Shown piece after piece: positions 12,915 to 33,762 of a stretch of 34,773 nt of DNA. Source of the stretch: Candidatus Saccharimonadota bacterium. Its GTDB lineage: Bacteria; Patescibacteriota; Saccharimonadia; Saccharimonadales; Saccharimonadaceae. The notes beneath the pieces were generated by a model. That model made no database searches. It was not told the origin of the DNA and was given only the letters and a program-made list of their open reading frames with translations. Numbering within the stretch: position 1 is the first letter of the stretch; every line of letters starts with the position of its first letter. Where the stretch lies: positions 1 through 34,773 of the forward strand of contig JAEEKR010000027.1 of assembly GCA_016282495.1 (NCBI GenBank), read 5' to 3'. The translations under genes and the position numbers were made by a program.

Positions 12915-13205
12915 ATGCAGTTTGATGAACAATTTTTAAGCGATATTGGGCTAGATGATATGCCTGAAGAACAGAAAAAGGCTTTTTTGGATTACGCCCA
13001 AGAAGAGCTGGAGGTGAGAATTGGCGAAAAGATTAGTGAGGGTATGACCGAGGAACAGCTTAATGAGTTTGATGCTATAGAGGATCAAGAACTGGCAGTT
13101 CAGTGGTTAGATGCTAATAGGCCAGATTATAAAGAAGTAGTGGCAAGAGTAGTGGAAGATTTTAAAAACGAAATTGCTTCTAATAAAGATCAAATTGCGG
13201 CTTAA
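12915..13205 (+). CDS. DUF5663-like small acidic protein
   Basis: SD ggagg; LDDMPEEQKKAFLDYAQEELEVRIGEKISEGMTEEQLNEFD. Confidence 0.75.
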   Translation: MQFDEQFLSDIGLDDMPEEQKKAFLDYAQEELEVRIGEKISEGMTEEQLNEFDAIEDQELAVQWLDANRPDYKEVVARVVEDFKNEIASNKDQIAA

Positions 13206-23804: not shown

Positions 23805-23970
23805 ACAGACGTTTGAGCAGTTATCAGCTGCGAGTCGGCGGAAGAAAAGCTTTGCCTAGTAGAACCGCTCGTGAATCTGCGTAAAAGATGAATTAAGGGC
23901 TAACTATTGTTAGAAATTGGATGGTACCGCTCGAATGAGTTCCAATGCGAAAGCATTGGTTTTTTATTTA
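23805..23970 (+). promoter_or_regulatory. T-box leader (tRNA-Ile sensing) with antiterminator/terminator
   Basis: T-box core TGGTACCGC; antiterminator ATTGGA-TGGTACC-GCTC..GAGT-TCCAAT; mutually exclusive terminator CCAATGCgaaaGCATTGGTTTTTT; precedes ileS. Confidence 0.9.
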
Positions 23971-23986
23971 TAAAAAAGGAGTAAAA

Positions 23987-26860
23987 ATGAAATTCAAAGC
24001 GGGAACAAGACGAAGGGCAATAGAGTATGAACGAGCAATTTCTGAATGGTGGAAGAAAAATAAAACTTTTGAAAAATCGGTAGAACAAAGACCGATTGAT
24101 AATTCGTATGTTTTTTATGACGGACCTCCGTTTATTACAGGTAATCCGCATCATGGTACACTCCTTTCTTCGATCGTAAAAGATGCCGTGCCTCGTTTTT
24201 GGACGATGCGCGGAAAGAGGGTGGAGCGTAGATGGGGATGGGATTGTCATGGGCTTCCAGCAGAGAATTTTGTTGAAAAACAACTTGGAATAACGGATAG
24301 GCGTGAAATTGGTACTAAATGGTCGCTTGAAGATTATATTATTAAGGCGCGCGAATCGATGGTGGCAAATTCGGAAACTTGGCGTGGCACGATTGACCGT
24401 GTTGGACGTTGGGTGGATTTTGATAACTGCTATCGCACAATGAATAAGGACTTTATGGAGTCGGTCTGGTGGGCATTTAAGACTTTGTATGAAAAAGGGA
24501 AGATTTACGAAGGGCGTAAAGTTCTCATGTATGATACAAAGTTTGCAACGCCGGTTTCTAAAGCTGAGGTGACGATGGATAATGATGCATATCAGACGGT
24601 GACGGACCCAAGTGCATTTGTAAAATTTAAATCCTCTGACGACGACTTCTATTTTTTGGCTTGGACGACGACGCCTTGGACGTTGCCTGCTAATATGGTG
24701 CTCGCCGTTAATCCAAAGATGAAATACGGTCTTTATCAGGTTGAAAACGAGCGATTTATTTTGGGCGTAGAGCAGGCAGAAAAGCTTTTCCCAGATAATA
24801 AGCCACTCAGGACTTTTCCTGGAAAAGAGTTGGTGGGGCAAGGCTATGAGCCATTAATTGGATTTCTCGATAAAAAAGAATTAAAGAAAGACACTTATCA
24901 TGTGCTAGGGGCGGATTTTGTCTCTAATGAAGATGGTACGGGTATTGTCCATATTGCGCCGGCCTATGGTGAGGATGACTATGCGCTATCCTTAAAGCAT
25001 GATGTAGATTTTCTCGATTGTATCGATGAGAATGGTTATTATCTTCCGGAAATGGCGGAAAAATTGCATGAACTTGGTGTGCGCGATACCGATGAAAACG
25101 GGATTGAGATTTGGGCGGGGAACAAGTTTATCGCAAAGATTCTTGAAGAAAAGGGAATTGTTTATAAGATTGAATATATTAAACACGAGTATCCGTTTAA
25201 CCCACGTTCTAAACAGCGTATTATGTACCGCGCGTTCCCGAGTTGGTTCTTTGACATTGAAGGCTCTAAGCCTTTGATGCTTGAAGAAAACGAGAATATT
25301 AACTGGTTCCCAGGGCATTTGAAACATGGTCGTTTCGCTAAGAATATCGAGCAGGCACCGGATTGGAATCTTAGCCGAGATAGATTCTGGGCAACAGCAA
25401 TGCCAGTTTGGAAGGGTGATAAAGGCTCGATTAAAGTAGTAGGATCATATGATGAACTTTATGAGCTCTCAGGGAAACGCCTAGAGGATTATCACCGACC
25501 ATGGGTGGATGAAATTAAGTTTGATATTAAAGGTGAGCATTTTACGCGTGTTGACAAGGTTCTTGACTGTTGGTTTGAATCTGGCTCGATGCCGTTTGCG
25601 CAGATGCATTATCCGTTCGAGAATAAAGAGAAGTTTGAACGAAATTATCCGGCTGACTTTATCGTGGAATATGTGGGGCAAGTGCGCGCTTGGTTCTATT
25701 ATGTTCATGCGGTGAATACGGCGCTCTTTGGCCATAATGCCTATAAAAATGTGATTACTACAGGTACTTTGGCCGGAAATGATGGTAGGAAGATGTCTAA
25801 ATCACTTGGGAATTATACTGATCCGAATGAGCTGATGGACAAGTTCTCGGCGGACTCTTTGAGATTTTTGCTTCTTTCTTCGCCGGTGCTTTCTGGAGAG
25901 GATTTTGCGCTTCTTGATAAGGATGTTTCAGATACGGCAAGAAAGCTCTCGATGGTTTGGAATGTATATGATTTCTTCACAACATATGCAGAAGTAGATG
26001 GGTTTGATTCGGATGATGCAAAATTGCCAAAGAAATTTGAGAATAGTTTGGACGAGTGGATCGTATCAAGAGTCTATCAGCTTAGGAATGAAATTACTGA
26101 AGGTATGGAAGAGTATAATATTCCGAGAGCCCTGGAGGGCGTCTTGCCATTTATTGACGATCTTTCAAACTGGTTTGTCAGAAGAAGCCGAAGACGTTTT
26201 TGGAAGTCTGAGGATGATTCAGATAAAAATGAAGCTTATAATACGCTTTATTTCGTCCTAGTTTATCTTAGTAAAATTATTGCACCGTTTGTGCCATTTC
26301 TTGCAGAGGAACTATACCAGCAGCTTGAAGGTCGAGACAAGTCCGTTCATCTGCTCGATTGGCCGGAAGCTGGCGAGATAAATGAGAACGTTGTTGAGGA
26401 AATGGGCAGAGTGCGTGCGATTATTACGGATGGTTTGGCGCTTAGGATGCAGAAGTCTGAAACAGAAGATCAAATCAAAGTGCGTCAGCCACTTTCCGAG
26501 TTGGTTTATCCTGGGAAAAAGCTTAGCGACGAATATGAGAAGATTATCGCAGAGGAAGTGAACGTAAAAAAGGTTGTGAACGGTAAAGAGTTGAAGCTTG
26601 ATAAGAAGCTCACAAAAGAACTAAGAGAGGAAGGATTTGCTAGGGAACTGATTCGTGTAATTCAGTCAGCAAGAAAGAAAGCGGGACTTAACGTTGACGA
26701 TCGAATTAAATTATCGGTTTCAAAGGAATTGAAGAACGAATGGAAGAAATTAGTGATGAACGAAGTGTTGGCGGTTGATATGACAAAAGATAACTATAGC
26801 TATGATGAAATTGTAAAAGTGGATGGGGAAGAGCTGACGATTTCGCTTGAAAAAGCATAA
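23987..26860 (+). CDS. ileS: isoleucyl-tRNA synthetase, eukaryote-like (IleRS2) type
   Basis: DGPPFITGNPHHGTLLSS, GWDCHGLPAE, KMSKSLGNY; SD aaggag; start at MKFKAG. Confidence 0.95.
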   Translation: MKFKAGTRRRAIEYERAISEWWKKNKTFEKSVEQRPIDNSYVFYDGPPFITGNPHHGTLLSSIVKDAVPRFWTMRGKRVERRWGWDCHGLPAENFVEKQLGITDRREIGTKWSLEDYIIKARESMVANSETWRGTIDRVGRWVDFDNCYRTMNKDFMESVWWAFKTLYEKGKIYEGRKVLMYDTKFATPVSKAEVTMDNDAYQTVTDPSAFVKFKSSDDDFYFLAWTTTPWTLPANMVLAVNPKMKYGLYQVENERFILGVEQAEKLFPDNKPLRTFPGKELVGQGYEPLIGFLDKKELKKDTYHVLGADFVSNEDGTGIVHIAPAYGEDDYALSLKHDVDFLDCIDENGYYLPEMAEKLHELGVRDTDENGIEIWAGNKFIAKILEEKGIVYKIEYIKHEYPFNPRSKQRIMYRAFPSWFFDIEGSKPLMLEENENINWFPGHLKHGRFAKNIEQAPDWNLSRDRFWATAMPVWKGDKGSIKVVGSYDELYELSGKRLEDYHRPWVDEIKFDIKGEHFTRVDKVLDCWFESGSMPFAQMHYPFENKEKFERNYPADFIVEYVGQVRAWFYYVHAVNTALFGHNAYKNVITTGTLAGNDGRKMSKSLGNYTDPNELMDKFSADSLRFLLLSSPVLSGEDFALLDKDVSDTARKLSMVWNVYDFFTTYAEVDGFDSDDAKLPKKFENSLDEWIVSRVYQLRNEITEGMEEYNIPRALEGVLPFIDDLSNWFVRRSRRRFWKSEDDSDKNEAYNTLYFVLVYLSKIIAPFVPFLAEELYQQLEGRDKSVHLLDWPEAGEINENVVEEMGRVRAIITDGLALRMQKSETEDQIKVRQPLSELVYPGKKLSDEYEKIIAEEVNVKKVVNGKELKLDKKLTKELREEGFARELIRVIQSARKKAGLNVDDRIKLSVSKELKNEWKKLVMNEVLAVDMTKDNYSYDEIVKVDGEELTISLEKA

Positions 26861-27059: not shown

Positions 27060-27308
27060 ATGAAAACGCCAAATCAAACAAAATCATCCGAAGTGATCGA
27101 ACTTCCAAGTAAAGTATTTAATGCCAACTGGAGGGATGATATTCCTGAAGAGCTTACGGATGAAGAAAATGAAATGGCGTTTGAAGTATATTCTGACGAA
27201 AAGAATTATCAATCGCCAGAAGAAGTTACCGCAAAAGCAGAAAGGAGAATAAGAATAATGAATGCTAAACGCGGTAAGAAAATTGGTAGTCTGCTTTCTG
27301 CTGCCTAA
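27060..27308 (+). CDS. orphan small acidic protein (82 aa)
   Basis: Complete ORF behind own promoter. Confidence 0.65.
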   Translation: MKTPNQTKSSEVIELPSKVFNANWRDDIPEELTDEENEMAFEVYSDEKNYQSPEEVTAKAERRIRIMNAKRGKKIGSLLSAA

Positions 27309-27435
27309 GAAAGGGAAATATTTATAAGTTAGACAAAGCAATAATAACTTTAATAATAGGGAATATACCGATGTAATGTAAAATTGAACACAAAAATTAT
27401 CAAAATTACCAAAGGAGTTTTTATAAGATAGAGCA

Positions 27436-27470
27436 GTTGGGCATCTTGACGGTGCTCAACTTTTTTTATG
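27436..27470 (+). terminator. intrinsic terminator
   Basis: AGTTGGGCAtcttgacggTGCTCAACTTTTTTT. Confidence 0.85.
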
Positions 27471-27478
27471 AAAAAATG

Positions 27479-27507
27479 TTGACAAAGTATTTCGCTTGTG
27501 GTAATTT
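27479..27507 (+). promoter_or_regulatory. operon promoter TTGACA-17-TAATTT
   Basis: ttgaca aagtatttcgcttgtgg taattt. Confidence 0.75.
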
Positions 27508-27557
27508 GAGGGGAGAAATGGTCATATATTAATAAAAATAAAAAGAAAGGCAAAAAT

Positions 27558-27893
27558 ATGAACGTTGACTACGATAAGCTAAATAATGAAAAGCTTGAGG
27601 CTTTTGTTTTGCAAATGATTGCAGATAAGGGTCTTGCGCTTGACGAAGAAGCTAAAGAGGAAGAGAAAGATAAACTTTTGGATTCTCTCAATGACAAGCT
27701 TGATGAGGCTATGGTCAATGCTCTGCCAGAAGATAAAGCTGAAAAGCTAAACGATCTTTTGGACGAAAAAGGCGACGAAGCAACAGAACGTGAAATTCAC
27801 GCTTTGCTTTATAGCTCAACTAATGAGATTAATGAAGCAATTGATAAAACTATGAATGCTTTTCGTGAAGAGTATTTGAAAGAGGAGGCTTAA
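27558..27893 (+). CDS. small acidic helical protein, possibly DUF5663-like
   Basis: SD aaagg; composition and pattern resemble the 12915 gene product. Confidence 0.7.
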   Translation: MNVDYDKLNNEKLEAFVLQMIADKGLALDEEAKEEEKDKLLDSLNDKLDEAMVNALPEDKAEKLNDLLDEKGDEATEREIHALLYSSTNEINEAIDKTMNAFREEYLKEEA

Positions 27894-27894
27894 A

Positions 27895-30027
27895 ATGAGT
27901 AGCGGCGAACAGGGACCTAAACCTGTTGTTTCGAGTGAATGGGATAGTTTAGCCGATCTTGAAGCAAAAAGAGAAGAGCTAAATCCTAACGAAACAGTAG
28001 ATGAAAGAGATGATTTTGATGCAGATCGCCTTAAGGAAGTTTACGAACAGCAAGAAGGCGAATCTGACGCAGATTACGAAAAAAGAATTGCTGGTATGGA
28101 AGAGGCGGCAAAAACCGGAACTTCTAAAGTAGAAGAAATTACGGCTACTGAGCAGGCAACTAAAGAAAACCGAGAAGCAGCTGAAAAGTTGGAAGAAGAA
28201 TATGCTGAAAGATTAAGAAGGTTTGATGCGTCGACCGAGCAGGGCCTCGCTGACGTAGCTGATGTTCTTAGCGGCGGCGTGAATGATGAAAGATACAAAG
28301 CTGTAGCTGAAAAAAGAAAAGCAGATAATGCCAAAAAGGCCGAAGAACTTAGAGCGCGAATCGATGAGGCCGTGAAAGCTGGGACTGCTGCTGAATTATT
28401 AGCGAAGTTGAAAGAAGAGGATAGGCTTGATGATGAATTTGAATGGTCACAGGAGGCTGGGAAAGCTGGTCTTGATGGTACTAAAGATGGCGAAGTTAAA
28501 GAAGCAGCAAAAGATTTGATGAAAGAATATTTTGCAAGATTGGATAAAATCGAGGCTGATATTAAGGAAACGGAAGAACAAATTAAAGGTGGTGAAGGTT
28601 CAATTGAAAGTATTAATAAGGATCTTGATGATAAAAAACAACAAGCTAAGGAAGGACTTGATAAAGTAATTGAACATATAGATGAACAAGAAAATTTGGA
28701 CGATGCACACAAGAATAGGCTAAAAGAGTTGGCTCAAAAAAGGTATGAAGCAAAACTCAAAGAGATTGAAGACGAACATAGTACGAGTGAAAAAGAAGCG
28801 GATTTGTCTGAGCTTAAAGCTAAGCTTGAAGAGCTAAAGCTTCAGAAAGAAGACGTACTGTCTGATCTCGAATATGTTAATGAAGAAGCCTTAAAACAAA
28901 GAAAAGAAATTCGAGATAGGTTTAATGCGACGGTGAGTGAGCCGGGCGAAGAAGAGCGCTACATGGATTTCTTCAAAAAGCATAAAGAAGAAAATTATGA
29001 ACAGCTTGAAAGAACTGGCCGTTTGAATAGGCAAAAAGAAACTACCGAGGCGGCCGATGAGGTTGTTGAAGGGGTAGCTGGTGGTGTAAAAGAAGATGAA
29101 GCAAAGGATGATTCTGAAGGACAGCCTGACAGTGAGAAAGCTGAAAAAATGGATGCAAAAGAGTTCTTGGAACAACTAAAAAAGTGGCGCGATGACGCTA
29201 TGAGAGAAATTGATGAAAAGTATAATGAGTTGTTGAAGAAATTCAACGGTGAGGCAGGGGAAGACGGTGAATCATCAGCCGATGAAGAACCAAAGGATGT
29301 AGGTGACTTAGGTGCTGCTGAGGTGATAAAGAATGGAGAAGTAATTGATGGTATTGATTTCGAAGGCTTAGATCTCGATGCATTAGAAGATTTGGAAAAA
29401 GTTGCTGATATGGAGCTCTCGGACATAGATGCCAAAGAAAAATATGGTGTTGCGGCGCATTATGTAGCCAATGTTCCGATTGATAAAAACAAGCCAGTTG
29501 CTTTCTATGTTGAGCAGATGAAGAGCGCATTTGCCGATGAGGATTTAAACAATGAGGCTTGGGAACAGCTAGAAAAAAATATGACGACTAGGTATAACAA
29601 TATTGTCTCACATCAAGCTGATGAATCTGAACCTGCTTCTAAAGATAGAGCTTTAGATATTGATGCTGGTGCCGATGCTTATGCAGAAACAGCCGAAGGT
29701 AAGCTAGAAATATTGAAGGGTGATGTGGACAAAGCTAAAAACGCAAGAGCCTTTATTAGGGATCTTGAGTTGGAAGACATTGAAGGCTTGTCGGTTGAAC
29801 AAGTGATGGATAAAGTTGTTCGTCCAAAGTTCTTTGCTAGTGGCTTCGATACGGCAGGTAGAACTTCGGTAAAATGGGATAAGTTAATTGATAGACTAAA
29901 TGCAGTATATGAATCATATGGCCTTAATTCTAAGGGCGAAAGAATCATTGATGAAGAAGCAGATGGTAGACGAAAGAAAAAAGGGATAGCTGGTAGGATT
30001 CGTGCAATGTTTAGGAGAGGAGAATAA
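27895..30027 (+). CDS. long coiled-coil, Glu/Lys-rich protein with basic amphipathic C-terminus
   Basis: Extended heptad-like E/K/L composition; ends RRKKKGIAGRIRAMFRRGE. Confidence 0.8.
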   Translation: MSSGEQGPKPVVSSEWDSLADLEAKREELNPNETVDERDDFDADRLKEVYEQQEGESDADYEKRIAGMEEAAKTGTSKVEEITATEQATKENREAAEKLEEEYAERLRRFDASTEQGLADVADVLSGGVNDERYKAVAEKRKADNAKKAEELRARIDEAVKAGTAAELLAKLKEEDRLDDEFEWSQEAGKAGLDGTKDGEVKEAAKDLMKEYFARLDKIEADIKETEEQIKGGEGSIESINKDLDDKKQQAKEGLDKVIEHIDEQENLDDAHKNRLKELAQKRYEAKLKEIEDEHSTSEKEADLSELKAKLEELKLQKEDVLSDLEYVNEEALKQRKEIRDRFNATVSEPGEEERYMDFFKKHKEENYEQLERTGRLNRQKETTEAADEVVEGVAGGVKEDEAKDDSEGQPDSEKAEKMDAKEFLEQLKKWRDDAMREIDEKYNELLKKFNGEAGEDGESSADEEPKDVGDLGAAEVIKNGEVIDGIDFEGLDLDALEDLEKVADMELSDIDAKEKYGVAAHYVANVPIDKNKPVAFYVEQMKSAFADEDLNNEAWEQLEKNMTTRYNNIVSHQADESEPASKDRALDIDAGADAYAETAEGKLEILKGDVDKAKNARAFIRDLELEDIEGLSVEQVMDKVVRPKFFASGFDTAGRTSVKWDKLIDRLNAVYESYGLNSKGERIIDEEADGRRKKKGIAGRIRAMFRRGE

Positions 30028-30029
30028 TT

Positions 30030-32042
30030 ATGAGCGACCCTGAAAGAATTAATTCTGCGGCAGATAATACGGCAGAACAAGAGAATGTTGCTCGCCACAA
30101 TGTGAATGGTCTTGGCGCAGCAGCAATGGCTGGTGCTGCAGAATCCGTGGATATGCCTGAATTCCCTAAAACCAAGGAAGAAATCGAAGCTTTCATTAAA
30201 AGCGGTAAGCTTAGCAAAGATGAACTCTTGAGATTAAAAGAGCGAATCGCTGAGGCTAAAGCCAAAAGAACTGGCAAGGTTCTCGAGGGAGCTAAGTCGG
30301 AAGTATCTGAAGCCGAAAAGAAACAGGCTGAAGAAATTAAGGAAGAAGTCGCCGAGCAAGAAAAGAATGCAAGAGGTAACTTACAAGAAAAACTGAATAA
30401 ACATAAAAACTTCAGAAAGGTTGCGGCCGTATTTTTGGCGGGCGCAATTGCCGTAGGTGGCTTTATTGCTGGCAGAAATATGCTTAAAAAACATAATGCG
30501 AATGCTGTTCCAGGCAATGATACAGCAGCTTCGGATGAAGTTAAGGATAACAATACAACCGAAAAACTCGATGAGGGTGGTGTTGTTGATCTTAATGGTG
30601 GTGGTGAAAAAACTGAAGTTGATAATAACGGAGGTGAAACTGCCGATGATGGGTTTGAGTTCACATCGAATGGCGTGAAATATAAAGTTAGCTTTTATGA
30701 TGGCAGTATAGAAAAAGAGCATAAATATGACTTTACTGGCGATAACAGTGAAATTTGGGATGACAAAGATGAAAAAGCTGCGGCTGAAATGGCTAAAGAT
30801 TTAGTAAGAGGTAACCCAGAAGCTTTGGCTGCTTTCTTCTATGAACTAGATGATAGCGTAAAAGGTGATTTAGCTGGGTACAGCAGAACGCAACTTGATA
30901 GCATGCTGAACGGCGAAGATGGTGCAGATTTACAGCAGCAGATGCTTAAAACTGTCGAAGGATTTATTGATGGCGGCAAAGTTGAGTTTACTGCAGCTGA
31001 AGCTGGACAAACTGCTTATAATACTTATGATCAGTTTGCGAACAATCCTGCTGATTCGTTACTTGCAACTAATCAGATTAATTTTAAGGGTGGTGAGAAG
31101 ATTTTTAGATATAGTGACGGTAAGTCTACTGTACTTCTTAATGCCGAATGTAGCAATATCTTGAGAATTGTTTTCGAGGATGACGGTTCGGTGACTGTGA
31201 CTGAAGAAAAAATTACGACAGATACACCAACACCAGATAAGCCAACACCGGATAAACCAACTCCAGATACACCAACACCAGATAAGCCAACACCGGATAA
31301 ACCAACTCCAGATAAACCGACACCGGATAAACCAACTCCGGATACTCCGGTCACCCCTCCAGATGTGACTCCTCCAGATGTGACTCCACCGGATGTGACT
31401 CCACCAGATGTCACTCCTCCAGATGTGACTCCACCAGATGTCACTCCTCCAGATGTGACTCCACCAGATGTCGCTCCTCCAGATGTGACCCCTCCGGATG
31501 TCACTCCTCCTACACTTACACCTAAAGGTGAAGATACTCATGCTGGTGTAGCCCCACTTCAGGAAACCCCTGAGGCTCCTGAAAGCGGCGCAACTCCAGT
31601 AGAGGCAACTGAAGAAAATCATGTTGATGCCGAAACAAATCCTGGCGCTGAAGTTAAAACCGAGGATATGAGCGATGAGGGTAAAGAAGGAATCGGTGAA
31701 GCTATTATGCAGGCACCAGAAGTGACGGAACAGGAAAACACTCCTACCTATAGTCCTGAAGTAAAACATCAGGAAGAAAATGAGGTACCTGTTGTAGGCG
31801 ATGGCGATACTAGGACATTTGAAGAAACTAAGCCGAACGTTAACGAAGCGGCGGCAGCTGAGAATACTCCTGGTAGTGCCGAAGACGGTACACGCACCCA
31901 AGAGGAGCTTGCAAATAGGTTTGCGGAGCTTAGTGGGACTGGTAGTAATGCCGAAAATAGTAGCAATGGTGCCACAGAGGCAGAGATGAATGCAGAATTT
32001 GGATTTGGCGAAACAACAAATAACAACGGAGGTAACCAGTAA
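30030..32042 (+). CDS. single-pass membrane protein with long Pro-rich pentapeptide stalk
   Basis: TM VAAVFLAGAIAVGGFIAG; folded middle region; TPDKP/TPPDV repeats; acidic C-terminal region. Confidence 0.8.
   Translation: MSDPERINSAADNTAEQENVARHNVNGLGAAAMAGAAESVDMPEFPKTKEEIEAFIKSGKLSKDELLRLKERIAEAKAKRTGKVLEGAKSEVSEAEKKQAEEIKEEVAEQEKNARGNLQEKLNKHKNFRKVAAVFLAGAIAVGGFIAGRNMLKKHNANAVPGNDTAASDEVKDNNTTEKLDEGGVVDLNGGGEKTEVDNNGGETADDGFEFTSNGVKYKVSFYDGSIEKEHKYDFTGDNSEIWDDKDEKAAAEMAKDLVRGNPEALAAFFYELDDSVKGDLAGYSRTQLDSMLNGEDGADLQQQMLKTVEGFIDGGKVEFTAAEAGQTAYNTYDQFANNPADSLLATNQINFKGGEKIFRYSDGKSTVLLNAECSNILRIVFEDDGSVTVTEEKITTDTPTPDKPTPDKPTPDTPTPDKPTPDKPTPDKPTPDKPTPDTPVTPPDVTPPDVTPPDVTPPDVTPPDVTPPDVTPPDVTPPDVAPPDVTPPDVTPPTLTPKGEDTHAGVAPLQETPEAPESGATPVEATEENHVDAETNPGAEVKTEDMSDEGKEGIGEAIMQAPEVTEQENTPTYSPEVKHQEENEVPVVGDGDTRTFEETKPNVNEAAAAENTPGSAEDGTRTQEELANRFAELSGTGSNAENSSNGATEAEMNAEFGFGETTNNNGGNQ
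31230..31502 (+). repeat. in-frame 15-nt tandem repeat tract: 8 TPDKP/TPDTP units then 10 TPPDV/APPDV units with a 3-nt joint
   Basis: Read directly from sequence and translation. Confidence 0.93.
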
Positions 32043-33370
32043 TGAAAAAAACAACAATCAAAAAACTTTTGGTGGGTGTTTTAGCATTTGCAGGTGCGTT
32101 GGGAGTCTTTTCTCTTCCTGCCAATGCAGCAGAATCTTGGGGTCCACAGGACCGACAGATGTTCACTTGGGAATCGCCGGCGCCTTATGCCACATTTAAC
32201 TCTATTAGCAATAACCCGGATATTGGTAAAGAATCAAACTTTGTGAGAGTACGTAAATATGGTACAAATGACAAATATTCTGACGAGGTCGCTATTGAGC
32301 CTGGAGGAATTTACGAAGTATATGTGTACTTTCACAATAATGCTGCTGACAATTTAAACGCTTCTGGTGCTGGTATTGCAGACAACGTTCGTCTTGCGAT
32401 GGAAATGCCATCCGAAGTTAATAAAGGTGAAGCTGCAGTGGTGAAGGGCACAATTTCTTCTACAAATACAAACCCTGGTAGTGTTTATGATACTGCTTAC
32501 CTTACTGCTTCTGAAACAGTATACTTAAGATATGTACAGGGTACGGCAGAAATTCATAATGGTGGTTCAGCTAATGGTAAGCTATTAGACGATGCTGCTC
32601 TTTGGAGTACTGGTTCTAAGTTGGCTTATTGGGATGAAGAGTGGGGAATGATTCCTGGTTGTAACAACTACGCTGGTTATGTTACCTTTAGGGTTAAAGC
32701 GGATCAACCAAGATTTTATATTGCTAAAGAAATTTCGGTTGATGGCGGAAATACATGGTCTGAGAACGCTACTGTAAAGCCTGGCGATACTGTAAAGTTT
32801 CGCATTAAATACCAAAACATTGGCACAACAAACCAAACTTCTGTGACCGTCTACGATGTTTTGGCGGATGGGATGACGTTGGTTCCTGGCTCTATTAAGG
32901 CAAAGATTCCAGCCAATGCTAATTATGTAGACGTCGATGATTCTGCTTGGGCGAACGGGCTAGGTATCGGTGATTATTTGCCAGAACAAGAAGGATATGT
33001 GGTTTACGATGTGAAAATCGAAGACAATAAGGATATCTTCATTTGTGGCAATACTGTTGTCTATAACAATGCTTATGTTACGACGGCTAACGGTACCATG
33101 TATGATAAGGTTGGAATAACCGTAGAAAGAAACTGTGGTGGAAATAATGGTGGTGGTAATACAACTCCAAATACCCCATCTGAACTTCCTTCAACTGGTC
33201 CTGCTGAAATTGTTTTAGCAGTGATTGTAGCATTAGCTATTGGTGTAGGTGGATACTACCTGATTAAGTCTAGTTCGACTTTGCATAGCATCAAGAAAGT
33301 TGAAACTGGTAAAGCCGTAAAGAAAGCTACTAAAACCACCAATAAAAAAGAGCATAAAGCTGATAAATAG
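32042..33370 (+). CDS. secreted DUF11-like surface protein with LPSTG-TM C-terminus
   Basis: Signal peptide (KKLLVGVLAFAGALGVFSLPANAAES), FRIKYQNIGTTNQTSVTVYDVLADGMTLVPGS, ELPSTGPAEIVLAVIVALAIGVGGYYL. Confidence 0.85.
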   Translation: MKKTTIKKLLVGVLAFAGALGVFSLPANAAESWGPQDRQMFTWESPAPYATFNSISNNPDIGKESNFVRVRKYGTNDKYSDEVAIEPGGIYEVYVYFHNNAADNLNASGAGIADNVRLAMEMPSEVNKGEAAVVKGTISSTNTNPGSVYDTAYLTASETVYLRYVQGTAEIHNGGSANGKLLDDAALWSTGSKLAYWDEEWGMIPGCNNYAGYVTFRVKADQPRFYIAKEISVDGGNTWSENATVKPGDTVKFRIKYQNIGTTNQTSVTVYDVLADGMTLVPGSIKAKIPANANYVDVDDSAWANGLGIGDYLPEQEGYVVYDVKIEDNKDIFICGNTVVYNNAYVTTANGTMYDKVGITVERNCGGNNGGGNTTPNTPSELPSTGPAEIVLAVIVALAIGVGGYYLIKSSSTLHSIKKVETGKAVKKATKTTNKKEHKADK

Positions 33371-33453: not shown

Positions 33454-33762
33454 ATGAAAAAAGCAGTTGTACTCATCGGCGGGAAACAATATCTTGTCGA
33501 AGAGAAAGAGACCCTACGGGTGGACCTCCTCCCGGCAGGCACAAAAGAGCTCGAAACTGATGCTTTGCTTCTTATCGATGGTGATAAGACTACTGTTGGA
33601 ACCCCAACTGTTAAAGGCGTTAAAGTTTCAGCGAAAGTAGTCGAAGAAAAAGTTGCTGGCGATAAGGTGCGCGTGATTCGTTATCATTCAAAGAAACGCG
33701 TTCACACTGAAACTGGTCATCGTCAAAAATATTCAGTGATTGAAATCACATCAATAAAATAA
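33454..33762 (+). CDS. rplU: 50S ribosomal protein L21
   Basis: VLIGGKQYLVEEKETLRVDLL..KVRVIRYHSKKRVHTETGHRQKYSVIEI. Confidence 0.92.
   Translation: MKKAVVLIGGKQYLVEEKETLRVDLLPAGTKELETDALLLIDGDKTTVGTPTVKGVKVSAKVVEEKVAGDKVRVIRYHSKKRVHTETGHRQKYSVIEITSIK

Follow-up and report, generated by a model that had tools for sequence, protein, structure and literature searches.

What does a run of four closely packed genes between ileS and the gene of ribosomal protein bL21 do in Saccharibacteria? The window analysed here is a stretch of 34,773 nucleotides from Candidatus Saccharimonadota bacterium, with ileS at 23945-26860, the four genes p1 to p4, rplU/bL21 at 33454-33762 and then parA. Saccharibacteria live as epibionts, and some of their surface proteins are essential; type IV pili have been named for tethering to the host, and further close-range adhesins have been predicted (PMC10633639, PMC12206443, PMC12815258). 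The original prediction took the four genes for an attachment or envelope-spanning apparatus. In our reading, drawn from sequence comparison and for and against which we are about evenly balanced, p1-p4 would be a conserved Saccharibacteria surface module with its own promoter, in which p3 and p4 form an outer-face complex for close-range host contact. The elements of the locus are the following.

27060-27308, + strand: p0, a small ORF (82 aa) between ileS and the operon, with similar ORFs in relatives
27435-27461, + strand: intrinsic terminator, 11-bp stem and T-tail, closing the upstream unit
27479-27507, + strand: promoter, TTGACA, 17-nt spacer, extended -10 TGG-TAATTT
27558-27893, + strand: p1, ORF of 111 aa
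27895-30027, + strand: p2, 710 aa, after a gap of 1 nt
30030-32042, + strand: p3, 670 aa, after a gap of 2 nt
30642-31184, + strand: p3 ectodomain (residues ~205-385), just outside the membrane, predicted alpha/beta fold
31149-31151, + strand: codon for Cys374, the sole cysteine of p3 and part of a C-x(1,2)-[Q/N] motif
31224-31517, + strand: Pro/Thr-rich stalk of p3, TPDK and TPPDV repeats in the sequence
32042-33370, + strand: p4, 442 aa, in a TAATG overlap with p3
32708-33139, + strand: DUF11-containing lobe of p4 (residues 223-366; PF01345, TIGR01451)
33185-33199, + strand: LPSTG of p4, followed by a transmembrane segment, placed by the family alignment

These coordinates and the promoter confirm the proposed layout of four genes following one promoter, and by eye p2, p3 and p4 are each preceded by a Shine-Dalgarno-like sequence. 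The -10 element (TAATTT) is weak, with 3 of 6 consensus positions and an extension by TGn, and because its score lies below the scan threshold a generic promoter scan missed this promoter. In a comparison of the 260 nt 5' of p1 in 27 genomes, about 24 have TTGAC[AC], a spacer of 16-18 nt and TAnnnT located 50-90 nt before p1, commonly with TGn, and the mean best promoter score is 10.4 upstream of p1 versus 8.8 in shuffled sequence. Hairpin-T sites, mostly ACCGAACA..TGTTCGGT, stand at the place matching the terminator in about 21 of the 27 relatives. Because promoter and upstream terminator both recur among these genomes, the p1-p4 operon appears, by comparative evidence, to be a real and conserved transcription unit. 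The small ORF p0 is a separate unit outside the operon; about 20 relatives have a diverged p0-like ORF of 45-105 aa in the corresponding position, and the family motif is W[RK]DDI..Y....EY.SP..VS.E..RI. In one locus (L101, genome G005), a gene inserted between p0 and p1 encodes a secreted protein of 815 aa that has a phage-type lysozyme domain and a CHAP domain.

The usual order in the genus is ileS, p1, one long middle gene, p4, bL21, parA. The middle gene encodes 500-1480 aa, mostly with one internal transmembrane segment, and the window and one relative, G016, have two middle genes where other genomes have one. Counting the window's own genome, a p4 homologue is found in 50 of 60 relatives and p1, weakly, in 26 of 60. 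A single-query search detects p3 in only 6 of the 60 (own genome again counted), a tally that is misleading because the neighbourhoods show the long middle gene in most of the genus. The p3 family was recovered by neighbourhood and ectodomain comparison (iteration of a p3-only HMM stalled at 9 sequences): with middle proteins compared by segments from the transmembrane segment onward, BLAST single linkage joins 52 of 69 into one family, and several others join it through profile comparison, among them proteins encoded at a distance from bL21. The arrangement p1-middle-p4 is present at 36 of 80 public-genome p4 loci (80 listed of 295), a sample that overlaps the set of 60 relatives, is nearly all labelled Saccharibacteria and has several loci cut by contig ends. 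Variants of the locus also occur. In G003 (L090) the p1-p3-p4 cassette is present as a tandem duplicate, and G013 (L099) has two p4 genes. In several genomes (L070, L071, L117, L118 and others) p4 and bL21 are separated by a gene that encodes about 420 aa; in L070, the one examined, the product is a RimK-like ATP-grasp. A 3.6-kb contig, G000:C34 (L103), holds a second ileS (70% identical) with p0, p1 and p3-type genes, and is probably contamination by a different species of the same genus.

Conserved synteny in Saccharibacteria, one of the points raised with the original prediction, holds for p1-p3-p4 in the genus and for p3-p4 beyond it, but not for p2, so that the four genes do not stand as one system and the core is the p3-p4 pair. 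The product of p2 was correctly described as a coiled coil with a basic amphipathic end: it has a charge of -76, shows heptad power in two stretches (residues 1-100 and 200-345), and ends in 17 aa that are basic and have a helical moment of 0.53. It has no Pfam or NCBIfam family match, and the sole match in the 60 relatives is the window's own genome. A separate gene at the p2 position exists in G016 alone, and the similarity between the two proteins is no better than that of shuffles, reflecting composition only. To judge from these searches p2 encodes an additional coiled coil, acidic, lineage-specific and unconserved. It might conceivably be an N-terminal piece split off from the long one-gene versions, but no similarity was detected either to those versions or to the gene of G016, and we did not adopt this origin.

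The first gene, p1, encodes an acidic protein (charge -19), as predicted, and a helical one. By itself it scores poorly against DUF5663 (PF18908; E 0.06, 14.4 bits, curated cut-off 23.7), and 15 of 27 aligned sequences of the p1 family match at E<=0.05, the best value of 3.5e-15 being that of an infB-linked paralogue included in the alignment. Through the scores of its orthologues, which fall in the family as the infB-linked copy does, we assign p1 to the patescibacterial DUF5663 family, to which by sequence it seems to belong. DUF5663 is present in 73 of 287 Patescibacteria genomes and in 0 of 14 controls, and we found no paper naming it in the open-licence literature. The window itself has a second DUF5663 protein, encoded at 12915-13205 directly after infB (E 3.5e-15); unlike that copy, p1 stands upstream of a membrane stalk protein.

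That stalk protein, p3, has the predicted transmembrane segment (~130-150), folded domain and Pro stalk (Pro/Thr-rich, ~399-496), together with a charge of -72 and an acidic tail. AF2 modelling of the ectodomain from 58 sequences gives a block with pLDDT 83-97 over ~229-378, mostly above 90, in which helices are followed by six strands. The model has no Foldseek match in the PDB (best E 0.11) or in BFVD and is a candidate new fold, "new" being relative to solved and viral structures. The Cys at the end of the ectodomain is found in 58 of 61 aligned homologues, and in 56 of those 58 a Gln or Asn stands at +2/+3 (background 19%). A complement-like thioester (CGEQ) was entertained for this C-x-x-Q and set aside, as Asn often replaces Gln and the spacing varies.

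In p4 the order is signal peptide, conserved N-terminal lobe, DUF11 lobe, transmembrane segment and Lys-rich tail. It matches DUF11 (PF01345) with 26.7 bits, above the cut-off of 24.6 (E 7.3e-6), and TIGR01451 with E 3.6e-9, and 23 of 24 p4 orthologues have DUF11 matches. The AF2 model (mean pLDDT 83.8) consists of two lobes of beta structure plus a C-terminal helix, the first lobe being without a Pfam entry. In the PDB, Foldseek matches it at low TM-scores to integrin alpha, to the C-terminal domains of AgI/II proteins and to collagen-binding adhesins, and the DUF11 and Ig-like matches are generic (TM-scores to the query below 0.3). Among AgI/II and PrgB-type Gram-positive adhesins, p4 matches the C-terminal domains of BspA and AspA, but at TM-scores of only 0.24-0.32 and ~10% identity the likeness is one of generic Ig-like folds. 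The closest described proteins are the DUF11 fibrillar-adhesin-like proteins (PMC9210967), whose stalks have a reported kinship to integrin alpha and Ig-like adhesins. Like them, p4 has a signal peptide, a stalk-type DUF11 lobe, an LPxTG-like end and integrin-alpha-like matches; unlike them, it is short and has no tandem stalk-domain repeats, its N-terminal lobe is specific to the family, its basic tail is long and its partner gene is fixed. It has no known adhesive domain, though the stalk-type DUF11 and the anchor are present. A pilin-like match of the p4 profile (E 0.004) was judged too weak.

The secretion, DUF11 lobe, LPSTG and transmembrane segment of p4 are all present as originally described, but the tail is too long and the LPXTG is not kept in orthologues. 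In the family alignment the T and G of the anchor motif are found in 109 of 112 homologues and the P in 89 of 112, and the preceding residues vary; cell-wall anchoring of p4 through LPXTG is, on sequence, doubtful, since IVNTG or IVETG takes the place of this motif in several orthologues. Sortase-anchored proteins have a short basic tail and a motif kept in orthologues, and p4 differs in this: its tail after the transmembrane segment runs for more than 25 residues, unlike the usual sortase signal, and Gram_pos_anchor scores 13.3 bits against a cut-off of 20. Sortase (PF04203) is present in 60 of 60 genomes, with three matches in that of the window. Nearly all homologues (110 of 112) retain three cysteines of p4, C207, C335 and C365, the last two of which lie on either side of a predicted hairpin and may pair with each other. 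Two p4 relatives in Lachnospiraceae-labelled records (L136, L184) have neither the three cysteines nor the TG motif, and are either mislabelled bins or transferred genes.

Outside the genus, p4 relatives are present in all 15 genomes searched from other genera and families, where their neighbours are folD, a response regulator together with a 7TM histidine kinase, or prfB-ftsEX (folD, prfB and ftsEX identified by eye). An exported Pro-rich protein is again found upstream of p4 relatives there. The p3-ectodomain HMM, run on the proteins near p4 relatives, finds L201 (2e-15), L212 (2e-8), L205 (6e-5) and L211 (1e-4), the matches in these alternative contexts being partly weak; hhalign supports the L201 partner (96%), and several further partner proteins bear, by eye, an RCGNxV-type motif. 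We read an anchored ectodomain-plus-stalk protein followed by p4 as a putatively old two-gene pair, to which p1 would have been added in the genus. In L202, L204, L206, L207 and L208, p4 relatives stand beside a 74-aa transmembrane protein, a multi-TM protein and a response regulator near folD; the multi-TM neighbour in L202, the only one examined, is a histidine kinase of the 7TM type that carries GAF and HATPase domains.

How far do these observations require a module of the surface, and one for host contact? Conservation within the genus extends to all of the region from ftsA to parB, and p1-p4 might simply be neighbours of unrelated roles kept together through slow rearrangement. We consider this very improbable: p1-middle-p4 is intact despite an inverted ileS (G033) or bL21 (G032), the middle gene and p4 stay together in G002 and G031 (ftsA and parAB inverted, p1 missing), the unit has one promoter, and p3-p4 recurs at unrelated loci. 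A structural envelope module, the chief rival and possible if rather unlikely, would have p4 as a coat or S-layer-like protein and p3 as a tether through the wall to a scaffold of p1/p2, with host contact incidental. The near-universal p4 family fits such a module, as do the company of the ftsA-ftsZ and parAB housekeeping genes and a codon usage of p1-p4 resembling that of translation and ftsZ reference genes, though this measure is crude, with four reference genes. The mature N-terminus of p4 is its most conserved part (mean pairwise identity 0.66), which suits assembly no less than it suits a tip specific to the host, and counts against host contact. On the other side, p4 has no S-layer homology or known anchoring domain, and p1, the p3 ectodomain and p4 diverge much faster than the flanking genes: median identity to the window is 84% for bL21, 83% for ftsZ, 77% for ileS and 76% for parA, compared with 42% for p4, 27% for p1 and 25% for the p3 ectodomain. 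Such fast divergence is also compatible with weak constraint.

Type IV pili and the T4SS of Saccharibacteria are envelope systems tied to epibiotic life (PMC10633639, PMC12206443, PMC12102498), and p4-type proteins could be a PrgB-like adhesin serving as contact factor for the patescibacterial T4SS, which we hold to be quite improbable. A PrgB-type adhesin was not found in Patescibacteria by PMC12102498, and p4 has the AgI/II-domain matches described above, but that fold is generic. A p4 paralogue (L102 and L217, from G000:C9; L104, L107, L095) has a transmembrane protein upstream of it and, downstream, a one-TM protein and a multi-TM protein of ~1000 aa. The latter is TrbL/VirB6-like in 3 of 4 neighbours: 1.3e-5 and 25.5 bits in the window's own genome, 7.1e-5 in G001, and 29.7 bits in G011, above the cut-off of 25.9. 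However, the other two matches are below that cut-off, the fourth neighbour has none, no virB4-like gene is seen by eye near the paralogues, and the window's own p4 stands beside no T4SS gene. There is also no pilin, ATPase or channel component among p1-p4 in Pfam and NCBIfam searches.

The surface module with host contact remains our best guess, and a structural envelope role is also possible. We counted for the surface module the promoter and terminator, the kept unit, the recurring pair, the fast divergence and the adhesin-type fold matches, and against it the generic DUF11/Ig-like matches, the unconserved p2 and the partly weak partners in alternative contexts. By sequence, p4 is an exported two-lobe beta protein held by its C-terminal membrane helix, and p3 a single-pass protein, its N-terminus probably cytosolic, whose ectodomain closes with C-x(1,2)-[Q/N] before the stalk. 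In the module the two would join in one complex on the outer face, with p1/p2 sitting on the cytosolic part of p3 and p2 perhaps touching the membrane through its basic amphipathic end; a spread of products over cytosol, membrane and surface had been proposed, and the sequences support it. The complex might then act close to the host cell after tethering by pili, the weakest step of the proposal. As originally supposed, no description of the p1-p4 set was found in the open-licence literature, supplementary tables aside, and for the p3-p4 pair we found no published function there. The pair is near-universal, fast-evolving and of fixed gene order; it gives named knock-out targets in cultured strains and bears on the question of close-range binding between Saccharibacteria and their hosts.

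A bolder version, which we think improbable, makes p3-p4 the missing close-range host-attachment complex itself, with the new-fold ectodomain joined to p4, the stalk reaching the host and p1/p2 providing the link to the cytosol. The joint could perhaps be a disulfide that links Cys374 of p3 to Cys207 of p4, which among the three cysteines of p4 is the one apparently left unpaired. This disulfide is only speculation, because C207 is kept in those 110 of 112 homologues with paralogues elsewhere included, and three genomes (G026, G002 and G031) have lost the p3 Cys while keeping C207. As to oxidative folding, VKOR was not found in the 24 genus genomes searched, and is present in 9 of 16 genomes from other families of the order. 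DsbA-like proteins (PF13462) are present in 30 of 30 genomes.
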